This document shows, piece by piece, positions 55,462-59,580 of a stretch of DNA of 64,000 nt. Each line of letters starts with the position of its first letter. Within the stretch, counting starts at the first letter, position 1. Position numbers and translations under genes: made by a program. Source of the stretch: an uncultured Mycoplasmataceae bacterium (lineage in GTDB: Bacteria; Bacillota_I; Bacilli_A; Mycoplasmatales; Mycoplasmoidaceae); assembly GCA_947429165.1 (NCBI GenBank), contig CANEON010000003.1, forward strand, positions 1 to 64,000, in the 5' to 3' direction. The notes below the pieces were generated by a model that worked only from the letters and a program-made list of their open reading frames with translations, had not been told where the DNA came from and made no database searches.

Positions 55462-56373
55462 ATGTCTAAACATTTCTTTCAATCAAACTACAAACCAAAA
55501 TTTGACTTTAAACAAACAATAAATTTTATTCAATCTTTTGATAAAATTTTAATTGATAAAATTTGTGAGAAATATTCGTCACAGCTTGTTAATTTTCCTT
55601 TGACTAGGAGCATTAAAACATTCGAAGTAACTAATTTATTTCCAAGAAATGTTATTTTTGATAATGCCAACACCGATTATCTATTTTCGTTAAATGAAAA
55701 TCCGATTGATTTTTTTATTCAAAAGTCAAATGACTTTCACTCAATAAAGTCATTTGTATCAAAAACATCTATTTTTAATAGAGATTCCGAATTAACAAAT
55801 ACTGATTCAATAAACAAAGATGTTTTGTTTTTATATATGTTTTATTCAAATATTTCGGTCTTGGATACATCATTTAAAAGAATTGCAAATTCATGTATTT
55901 CGTTAATTAATGAAGCTCTTATTGGTTGTTTTGAAAAGCTAGAAAGCAAAAAAATAAACAAGATTAATGTTAAAAATGCATGAGATGTTTTTAATAAAAA
56001 AAGCGTAGATAAAGAAAAATTTATCAATGAATATATTTATAAAAACAATCCAACTTTATTTATAGGAACACCATTAGAATTTTCAAATGAATCTAATGAA
56101 CTTCAAATGTCAAATGTGGAACATAAAAAATATTGTGCCTCATTTTATGTTTATGTACCAAGATTAAATAATAAACTTCGTTTATTTAAAATTTTTCCTG
56201 TTGAATTTGACGAAATACAAGAAAAAGACGGACAAAACTTTTTGATTCAATTTGATTTATCAAACATTTATCTTTATGCGTTAGATAAAGTTCATATAGC
56301 TGAAGTGGTTGCTTCTTCTTGGCCAGAAGATTTTATTGATTTTGTTAAAACAAATAATATCAAAATAATGTAA
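55462..56373 (+). CDS. Hypothetical protein paired with the dual-nuclease gene
   Basis: 303-residue protein without a motif I recognise. It is rich in Phe, Asn, Ser and Lys, has no signal peptide or clear membrane helix, and contains a short ordered-looking part near the end (A-S-F-Y-V-Y-V-P-R, F-L-I-Q-F-D-L-S-N-I-Y-L). Only one Trp-TGA codon occurs before residue 200. It starts 3 bases after lysS and ends 2 bases before the nuclease gene, suggesting that the two proteins act together. It could be a partner or substrate adaptor; this is inference from position alone. Confidence 0.7.
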
Positions 56374-56375
56374 AA

Positions 56376-58424
56376 ATGAAAAGTAATTACGTTAGAAAAT
56401 ATGATTATTTACAGTATTTTTATCGTCCTAAATCAGAATGATTTATAGATGATGAAGTAATTACTGATATTCTTCACGAAAGAGTTAAAAACTTATCAAT
56501 TAAAAACAAATTAGACATTGACATAGATGAAGAAGATTTAGACGAAAATGAATTCGAATCAAAAGAAATTGATTCCTACGAATACTATCAACAACTTAAA
56601 GATACAACCGATGTACACAAAAAGTTAGATTTAACAAATCCGAAAGTTTGTGAGGGACAAATTATTGACGAAAAATCAAGAGAGTATATTAAAAAACAAT
56701 TTCCAAATTGTAAAGCTTTTGATTTATCAAAAGACAATCTAACAAATGAACAAGCATTTGCGCAAACATTAGAATTGATTAAAGAAAACAACAACGTTAT
56801 TTTATTTCAATCTGTGTTTATCTATACTGATCCAAAAGATAAAACACAAAAAGCAATTGCAAAACCAGATGCTATTGTAAAAAATGATGGTAAATTAGTT
56901 TTAATTGAAACAAAAGGAACAACATCTACAAAATTTATTCATCTTTTAGATATTTATTATCAAAAAAACATTATTAATGAAGCACTTAAAATTCTCGAAA
57001 ACGAGCCAAAGATTGATCAATACAAACTTTGTATTGTTAAATACGAAAAGTGCCTTGTTCATGATGTAACTTTTGTATTAGTTGATAGGTGTAATTTTGG
57101 TAAAAATTCAATAAAACCTACAGATAAACAATTAGAAGAAGCTACTTCAGATTTACAAAAAGAACAACTAAAACAATATGTAAAAGAATTAATTAATGAT
57201 CAAGAAGATTTTGATATTTATTCTTTATTGAATAAGGGTGAAAATATATATTTTCAAACAAAGAAAAGATTTAATGGTTACATAGAAAAATTTAATAATT
57301 TTTTATCAGATGAAAATAAATTTTGAGAAATAATTAATGAATTATTTGAATATCAACCAATTGACCCAAAAGAATTAACATTTCAACCGTGCAAGGAATA
57401 TAAATCAGAAATTAAAGATACAGATTATTGAACGTCAATAAGAGACTACTACTATATAAGTAATAATCCTGATTTATTTCCTTTTCAATTTTCTGGAAAC
57501 TTGATTGATTATAAAAAGGCACTTTTACTTTATAGTAAAATTAAAGGTTCTAACATTTCTTTTGAAAGTTTTTTGAATGAGGCTTGTAAAAAAACAGAGA
57601 CTTATTCTCCTAAAAATTTATTGCTTATATACAATGGATACTTAAAGCAAAATTCTTTAATAATTTCCAACGGTTATTGTTCTTGAAAAGAACAAGCTCA
57701 TGATTATGTTAAAAAATTAAGAAACAAAAAAGTTTATTTTGATTTTGAATCGCTAAACTCGGCTATTAGAGTTGTTGACGGATATTATCCATTTATGCAA
57801 ACCGTTAACCAGGTGTCTGTAATTTTTGATCACGGAGATTCAAAACTTTCAGAGCCTGTTGCTATTGTTATTGATCCGAAAGACGGAATTAACAAACAAC
57901 ATTTTAAACAAATTATTGACGCAATATTGCCTTCTAAAAATTTAGAAGAATGCAAAGATTATCATTATGTTGTATTTAATGATGGTTTTGAAGTTCCTCG
58001 TTTAAATGAGATGGCTAATTATATAGATGAAAAAGAATACTACGATAAAGTTAATGTTATTACAAGTAATATTTTTGATATTGCAGAATGATTTACTATC
58101 TCAGCAAAAAGAAATGATTTCGTCGTATTTAAAGAACTAAAAGGATTCTATTCAATAAAAAAAGTTTTACCACTTGTTGAAAAATATAAACCAGAAATTT
58201 TTAAACAAACCGGATGTAAAAACTACAAAACAGAATTAACTAAAATTCAAAACGGTTCTGATGCACAGAATGCTTCAACAAGAAGATTTTTTAATAAATT
58301 AACAGAACAAGAATGAGAAGACAACGTTAGCCATTTGAAAGAATATTGCAACAATGATGTTCGCGCAATGATTGCTGTTGAATATCTTGTAAAAGAAATA
58401 ATGAGCGAGCATTATGGCCGATAG
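56376..58424 (+). CDS. DUF2779-type protein with PD-(D/E)XK and DEDDy nuclease motifs
   Basis: 682-residue protein that appears to carry two nuclease folds. First, residues about 160-185 have A-K-P-D-A-I-V (Asp 165) and L-I-E-T-K-G (Glu 178, Lys 180), a RecB-like PD-(D/E)XK core. Second, residues 453-675 fit DUF2779: Y-F-D-F-E-S (Asp 456, Glu 458), V-F-N-D-G-F-E (Asp 536), and Y-C-N-N-D-V-R-A-M (Tyr 657, Asp 661), the three motifs of a DEDDy 3'-5' exonuclease. Similar mycoplasma proteins exist (I recall a Ureaplasma UU173 family). Function is unknown. It follows the 55462 gene after 2 bases, and the ald-like gene after it has its own promoter. Confidence 0.75.
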
Positions 58425-58446: not shown

Positions 58447-59580
58447 ATGAAATTATTACTTTTAAAAGAATCTAAGAAAGATAATCGTGCATTATTAATT
58501 CCTAACGACGTTAAAGAATTAACTTCTAAAAAACTTGAAATATATTTTGAATCAGGAATCGGTTCATCATGTGGTTTTACTGACACTGATTACATCTCAG
58601 CTGGTGCTAACCTTGTAAAAAATTACAAAGAAAAAATCGATACTTACCACATCATTTGTACTTCTGGTGTTATTAGTAAATCTTTGCTAAAGAAACTAAA
58701 ACCAGAACAAATAATTTGAAGTTATTCAAATCCAATTAATCAAGTTAAATTTTTATACAATTTATTAAATTGTAAAAACACACTTATTTCTTTAAAAACA
58801 ATTTCATGAGATTCAGAATCTTCTATTTTTACAAACACAGAACAATTAAAAGGTAAATTTGCTGTTTCACTTGCTGGATTATATTTATCAAAATACGATA
58901 AAAGAGGTTTAGGGAAAGTATTAGGTAAAGTTAATGAGGTTAATTCTACGGTATTTGTTGTTGGTGGAGCAAGGTTTGCTGGCGAAGCAATTATTAAATC
59001 GAGTTTATCTTTAGGTAGTGACGTTGTTGTATTTGACCACAGTCAAGAAGCTGTTGACGCTATTAAAAACAACCACCAATTCCAAACTTTGTGTTCTTTA
59101 AATAAATGTTCTATTTCAGTATTTAAGTATGACTTTGAAAAATTATTTTCAATGTTAAGACAAGCAGATGTTGTTTTCTGCTGCTCTGACAATCCAAATA
59201 CTAAAGCTCATGAAATATTCAACGAAAAGATGATCAGTACAATGAAAAAAGGTACTGTATTTGTAAATTTAGCATCTGATTATGGATTTGCTAGCGAGAC
59301 AGAGAGATATTCTACAAAAGTAAAAAAATCAATATTTACAACAGCTGGTATTATTCACTTTAATGTAGCTGATATAGAAAAGTATTATCCTGAAACATTC
59401 TCAACACTTATCTCTCATCTAAATATGTTATATTTAGAAATCTTAATGGAAAATACTTTTAATTTAGAGTCTTCTCCTCAAATTGCTCCTGCAGTAATTA
59501 CCCATAAAGGTAATTTAACTAATGAAACTATTGCTAAATCATTAAGTTTAAAATATACAAAATTAAAAGACATTAAATAA
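58447..59580 (+). CDS. Alanine dehydrogenase/transhydrogenase-family protein, divergent
   Basis: 377-residue protein with the Ald/PntA fold: N-terminal E-S-K-K-D-N-R-A-L-L-I-P (family K-E-x-K-x-x-E-x-R-V-A-L-T-P), V-F-V-V-G-G-A-R-F-A-G-E-A in place of the NAD-binding G-G-G-V-V-G, V-V-V-F-D-H-S as the ribose-binding Asp strand, and the C-terminal I-A-P-A-V-I-T-H-K-G-N-L-T. The pyruvate-binding Lys (V-K-V-K-E-P) and catalytic His (Y-L-H-L) of alanine dehydrogenase have no clear counterparts: the region reads I-I-W-S-Y-S-N-P and L-I-S-L-K-T. So alanine dehydrogenase activity is doubtful. It has its own promoter and precedes rpsU. Confidence 0.75.

Follow-up and report, generated by a model that had tools for sequence, protein, structure and literature searches.

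The segment described here is a co-oriented, almost gapless run of three genes encoding lysyl-tRNA synthetase (lysS), a pseudoenzyme derived from asparagine synthetase A (AsnA) and a double nuclease of the UU173/DUF2779 family. Of greater interest is the middle gene, which represents a conserved, uncharacterised family of lysS-linked pseudo-AsnA proteins; the nuclease motifs encoded next to it are ordinary for a known family. The AsnA-like identity of the 303-residue product and the linkage of its gene to lysS are firmly established. As a combined interpretation, we lean towards a lysS-linked, AsnA-derived pseudoenzyme that would act as an accessory of lysyl-tRNA synthetase (LysRS), accompanied by a separate nuclease.

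The window, i.e. the whole stretch of 64,000 nucleotides that was analysed, comes from a mollicute genome (G000; 709,615 bases in 7 contigs) read with TGA as Trp. With this code, the two plus-strand open reading frames of an earlier, sequence-only reading, encoding proteins of 303 (P0001) and 682 residues (P0002) and lying 2 bp apart, are exact (Table 1). The P0001 gene starts 3 bp past the lysS stop codon. The P0002 gene is followed after 22 bp by an alanine-dehydrogenase-like gene of the same orientation, which adjoins only in the nearest relatives and stands outside the conserved unit. A profile built from the lysS of the window and three relatives detects lysS upstream of the AsnA-like gene in lysS-linked loci.

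Table 1. Features of the lysS region and the basis of their assignment.
Feature	Position	Strand	Basis
lysS, lysyl-tRNA synthetase, 492 aa	53980..55458	+	ORF; lysS profile
lysS-linked AsnA-like pseudoenzyme P0001, 303 aa	55462..56373	+	ORF, AsnA homology, fold, lost canonical residues
P0001 codons R62..F66-D67	55645..55662	+	Residue comparison of lysS-linked and canonical proteins
P0001 codons R107-D108	55780..55785	+	Residue comparison of lysS-linked and canonical proteins
P0001 codon E281	56302..56304	+	In the C-terminal L-x-K-x-H-I-x-E-V stretch common to canonical AsnA
DUF2779/UU173-family protein P0002, 682 aa, two nuclease domains	56376..58424	+	NF045869, PF11074, model
P0002 PD-(D/E)XK core, aa 89-206: E93-G94, P164-D165, E178-x-K180, Q196	56640..56993	+	Conserved residues, model, Foldseek matches MGME1 and RecE
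P0002 DEDD-type exonuclease domain, aa 449-682: D456, E458, E539, Y657, D661	57720..58421	+	Conserved residues, fold match
Next gene, alanine-dehydrogenase-like by reading of sequence	58447..59580	+	

Ancestry and residues of the 303-residue protein

As a single sequence, P0001 matched no Pfam, NCBIfam or PADLOC entry, and to this extent its earlier description as unrecognised was correct. The family profile, however, identifies it as AsnA-like. A profile of 15 members from the window genus matched the solved AsnA structures 9v83 (1.9e-15), 4lns (1.7e-13) and 11as (0.001). PF03590 was matched singly by 8 of the 15 genus members (best 1.8e-11) and by 17 of 29 proteins of the wider family (best 1.4e-33), and hhalign gave 98.7% against one canonical mollicute AsnA. 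The best match of the predicted model (pLDDT 80) was E. coli AsnA 11as (Z 21.5, rmsd 3.8, 258 aligned residues), followed by T. brucei AsnA 4lns (Z 21.2) and then by class II synthetases, every one of which ranked below AsnA. P0001 is a divergent AsnA homologue, recognised by its family profile rather than by its single sequence.

By descent, the pseudoenzyme is an ancient paralogue of AsnA; its fold is that of class II aminoacyl-tRNA synthetases, minus the anticodon-binding domain. Lysyl- and aspartyl-tRNA synthetases combine the class II core with an OB-fold anticodon-binding domain; the 303 residues of P0001 do not hold this combination, and alignments to LysRS, AsnRS and AspRS chains span the catalytic core only, beginning at about synthetase residue 110-230 (295 in one). 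A decaying lysS paralogue was rejected since AsnA ranks above LysRS and AspRS in both sequence and structure. A toxin, defence protein or nuclease subunit was likewise discarded, as single-sequence searches of Pfam, NCBIfam and PADLOC gave no match and the profile led to AsnA.

The residue comparison covered 41 lysS-linked proteins, 22 canonical AsnA of mollicutes and 11 AsnA of bacteria or others outside the order; its reference was the 68 columns invariant across the canonical mollicute set. The counts are bimodal: lysS-linked proteins keep 9-28 of these residues, P0001 having the lowest count (9), and canonical proteins inside and outside the order keep 55-68. Of 12 AsnA-like matches fetched from outside the order, the 11 readable ones retain 63-68, and lysS is absent from the flanking sequence retrieved with them. 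Only 4 of the 68 columns are kept in at least 80% of the lysS-linked proteins. In AsnA, an Asp-Gln pair anchors the substrate carboxylate (PMC3532385); matched by position, the Gln occurs in none of the 41 lysS-linked proteins, and the conserved AKWKR stretch has lost its second Lys in all of them. Most members have also lost motif 3, which is Gly-rich with an Arg; 15% retain this Arg, and half have Asn in its place.

The lysS-linked proteins nevertheless resemble AsnA (PF03590/TIGR00669; E. coli 11AS, T. brucei 4LNS) in fold, length, order of secondary structure, significant profile similarity and the C-terminal L-x-K-x-H-I-x-E-V stretch. What sets them apart, besides the missing canonical invariants and their fixed place behind lysS, is a new set of residues: R62, F66, D67, R107 and E281 are present in all 41 proteins and D108 in 40. 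Canonical AsnA shares the conservation of F66 but not that of R62, D67 and R107. R107-D108 stand at about the position of class II motif 2, next to a column that is invariably Arg in canonical AsnA and mostly Asn in the lysS-linked set.

Purifying selection acts on the AsnA-like gene (dN/dS 0.07-0.25 in seven pairs), which excludes a decaying pseudogene despite one broken copy (L183, see below). The protein evolves much faster than LysRS, with 60% identity against 97% in the same genome pair. A maximum-likelihood tree, which has several long branches and an unsure inner order, places lysS-linked proteins and canonical AsnA on opposite sides of a single branch supported at 100/100, and judged from these sequences the set may have one origin. 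Non-canonical and canonical proteins were first separated partly via lysS; residue counts and tree, which are independent of lysS, gave the same split. The lysS-linked family is a pseudo-AsnA in which most canonical active-site residues have been lost and a new invariant set has become fixed.

The position of R107-D108 at motif 2 makes a changed catalytic function possible. The protein might be a repurposed, active class II adenylate-forming ligase, or a ligand-binding enzyme, which acts on a new substrate (e.g. lysine- or tRNA-related) through R62, D67, R107, D108, K276 and E281. Purifying selection and the occurrence of the new invariants in 41 of 41 proteins from several mollicute families are in line with such an enzyme, but the loss of canonical motif 3 in most members and of the second AKWKR lysine in all of them makes it rather unlikely.

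Linkage to lysS and a proposed role beside LysRS

In a sample composed of the best non-canonical and canonical matches by rank rather than at random, so that fractions describe the sample, lysS is the gene immediately upstream, in the same orientation, of 41 of the 42 non-canonical AsnA relatives, mostly with a gap of -1 to +8 bp. None of 33 canonical AsnA genes (0 of 22 from mollicutes, 0 of 11 from outside the order) adjoins lysS. The AsnA-like gene stands behind lysS in Spiroplasma, Malacoplasma, M. penetrans, a Ureaplasma species, Hepatoplasmataceae (Hepatoplasma among them) and other mollicutes. Here, two genera of family f5 (g13 and g32) were taken as Spiroplasma as they carry spiralin genes, and G209, placed in the genus of G111, was taken as a Ureaplasma species. 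A literature search found no paper linking lysS with an asnA-like gene.

The AsnA-like gene has been lost in many genomes of the window genus. Twelve of them keep DUF2779 without the AsnA-like gene, and nine genomes with DUF2779 lack any AsnA-family match. In family f7, only canonical AsnA was present in the sample. LysRS therefore works without the AsnA-like protein in these organisms. No genome sampled from the window genus has both canonical AsnA (G007, G010, G011, G015, G019, G030) and the lysS-linked gene; mutual exclusion as a rule was rejected since M. penetrans and relatives carry both.

Three loci depart from the common arrangement. A non-canonical AsnA-like gene with 24 of 68 canonical residues (L134:3862-4779, G045) lies away from lysS beside transporter-permease-like genes; it keeps the F66/D67/R107/D108 pattern and has Lys at the R62 position. 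In G217 (L183:3190-4202), the copy behind lysS is fragmented into short pieces, and loss is probably under way. At L136:4688-6193 (G049), the lysS upstream of the AsnA-like gene is apparently split into two ORFs, which reflects either a genuine interruption or an artefact of assembly.

The AsnA-like gene is probably translationally coupled to lysS, and this suggests a role related to LysRS, the simplest being that of a non-catalytic accessory or regulator. The AsnA-like protein would be translated directly behind LysRS and would bind LysRS, tRNA-Lys or a small ligand in the former synthetase pocket. In this way it might modulate LysRS, much as HisZ does for HisG or the B subunit for Pol gamma. 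To our knowledge, no such accessory is known for any bacterial LysRS. Both HisZ, which resembles HisRS and regulates HisG, and Pol gamma B are non-catalytic proteins with a class II synthetase fold. By analogy, the AsnA-like protein may share with them this fold without synthetase activity; it differs in that they descend from other parent enzymes and that the partner proposed here is LysRS, to which binding is likewise proposed (for HisZ, see PMC9437257). We put forward the accessory mechanism tentatively. The broader idea that many mollicutes have a heteromeric or regulated LysRS, with an ancient AsnA-derived pseudo-synthetase as dedicated subunit or regulator, is more doubtful still.

Against the accessory role, synteny in compact genomes can last without interaction; the much faster evolution of the AsnA-like protein and its absence from several genomes also weigh against it. 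The AsnA-like gene could be a passenger whose function has nothing to do with LysRS and whose place near lysS is a matter of chance where genomes rearrange slowly, and its loss in several lineages, the non-canonical copy away from lysS (L134) and the broken copy behind lysS (L183) would suit such a gene. Yet the linkage to lysS persists even though the genes further downstream differ between mollicute families, and at most loci the start codon lies a few bases from the lysS stop. We thus regard a chance association as improbable, though worth keeping in mind beside the LysRS accessory.

The neighbouring UU173/DUF2779 nuclease

P0002 is an ordinary member, by sequence, of the known UU173 family, which occurs throughout the mollicutes and whose two-nuclease architecture was already published in 2014. 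It matches NCBIfam NF045869 (E 4.5e-92; 310 bits, cut-off 225) and Pfam PF11074 (DUF2779; E 9.6e-17; 61.9, cut-off 23.3). Majorek et al. placed DUF2779 (clade F.17) among the RNase-H-like 3'-5' exonucleases, with a DUF83 (PD-(D/E)XK-like) region (PMC3985635). P0002 is alike in both the RNase-H-like exonuclease domain and the DUF83-type PD-(D/E)XK region and differs from the family in nothing essential; it is special only in its position downstream of lysS. It has the two-nuclease architecture in common with COG2251/YprB-type nucleases (PF13482; PMC3985635), but lacks their AAA/helicase part and belongs to a different sequence family.

The presence of two different nuclease folds in one protein, proposed in the sequence-only reading, is supported by conserved residues and by matches of the predicted model (pLDDT 92). 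All three exonuclease motifs named there, DFE (456-458), NDGFE (535-539) and YCNND (657-661), are present and conserved; in motif II, a Glu (E539) takes the place of the Asp of the classical DEDD set. D456, E458, N535, E539, D568, Y657 and D661 are identical in 50 of 50 family members, and residues 449-682 of the model match polymerase-B exonuclease domains, ExoI and epsilon (Z about 10-11). The RecB-like site D165/E178/K180, which with Q196 lies in the N-terminal half, was also correctly read; its three residues are kept in 42, 41 and 45 of the 50 members, respectively. Foldseek matched the PD-(D/E)XK nucleases MGME1 and RecE at weak E-values, and over most of its length the model resembles a giant-virus YprB protein (E 5.7e-9). 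When the 50 DUF2779 proteins were searched against Pfam, no PDDEXK family passed the threshold, and NERD matched weakly in 6; the N-terminal assignment therefore rests on the residues, the predicted fold and the 2014 paper (PMC3985635). P0002 is probably a nucleic-acid-processing enzyme, predicted to combine a 3'-5' exonuclease with a RecB-like nuclease.

In Mycoplasmopsis-type DUF2779 members, the PD-(D/E)XK residues are gone or unalignable. In the proteins of L104, L108, L109, L111, L114, L116 and L117, they are lost or cannot be aligned and the DEDD residues are fully kept. Part of the family can thus do without the second nuclease site. In M. bovis, transposon insertion into the DUF2779 gene Mbov_0804 led to poor growth only in the presence of host cells (PMC7373297).

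A position of DUF2779 downstream of lysS was seen in three settings only: the window genus, a single related genome (L096), and contig L075 of a Malacoplasma sp. The 73 named DUF2779 loci comprise 14 with lysS, the AsnA-like gene and DUF2779 in a row, 7 with lysS directly before DUF2779 and 52 with neither. Adjacency of the AsnA-like gene and DUF2779 is confined to the window genus and the related genome, where 13 of the 14 named loci have a gap of -1 to 5 bp and the two genes are probably co-transcribed. This close spacing speaks for the earlier proposal that the 303-residue protein is a dedicated nuclease partner in a repair, processing or defence system. The proposal has become very unlikely, for the partner accompanies DUF2779 at only 14 of the 73 loci and 12 genomes of the window genus keep DUF2779 without it. 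Outside the window genus and its one relative, the AsnA-like gene was never beside DUF2779 and followed lysS; in Spiroplasma-type genomes (L133, L137), it comes directly after lysS and DUF2779 is hundreds of kb away. The sequence-only reading had itself named unlinked genes in other genomes as the finding that would speak against such a system. For defence, neither protein had a PADLOC match at E 1, which leaves room for an undescribed system. Next to an AsnA-like accessory of LysRS, the nuclease would be a separate nucleic-acid-processing enzyme that came to stand downstream in the window genus.

Asparagine annotation and translation in mollicutes

That the AsnA-like protein still makes asparagine, as a divergent but active AsnA, is the least probable reading by our estimate and a most improbable one: its fold is the same and AsnA models still recognise distant members, but most of the canonical residues for substrate and ATP are gone, M. 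penetrans and others also carry a separate canonical AsnA, and in the 16 genomes searched no lysS-linked protein reaches the TIGR00669 cut-off of 292.8 bits (best 98.1 bits; no match for P0001). Asparagine synthesis has been credited to the Hepatoplasmataceae, where a study assigns conversion of aspartate to asparagine to an aspartate-ammonia ligase (PMC10928387), a point in favour of activity. In four Hepatoplasmataceae (L154, L156, L157, L158), the only AsnA-family genes found are lysS-linked and keep 13-17 of 68 canonical residues, and TIGR00669 had no match in the six Hepatoplasmataceae genomes searched.

Weak matches to AsnA models may be annotated as aspartate-ammonia ligase, and claims of asparagine synthesis for such genomes, e.g. 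Hepatoplasmataceae, may be wrong. In a 2014 survey of mollicute translation genes, the words AsnA and asparagine are absent from the main text (PMC4014445). A synthetase-like pseudoenzyme attached to lysS in several near-minimal bacterial families points to an unstudied part, or neighbour, of the translation machinery.
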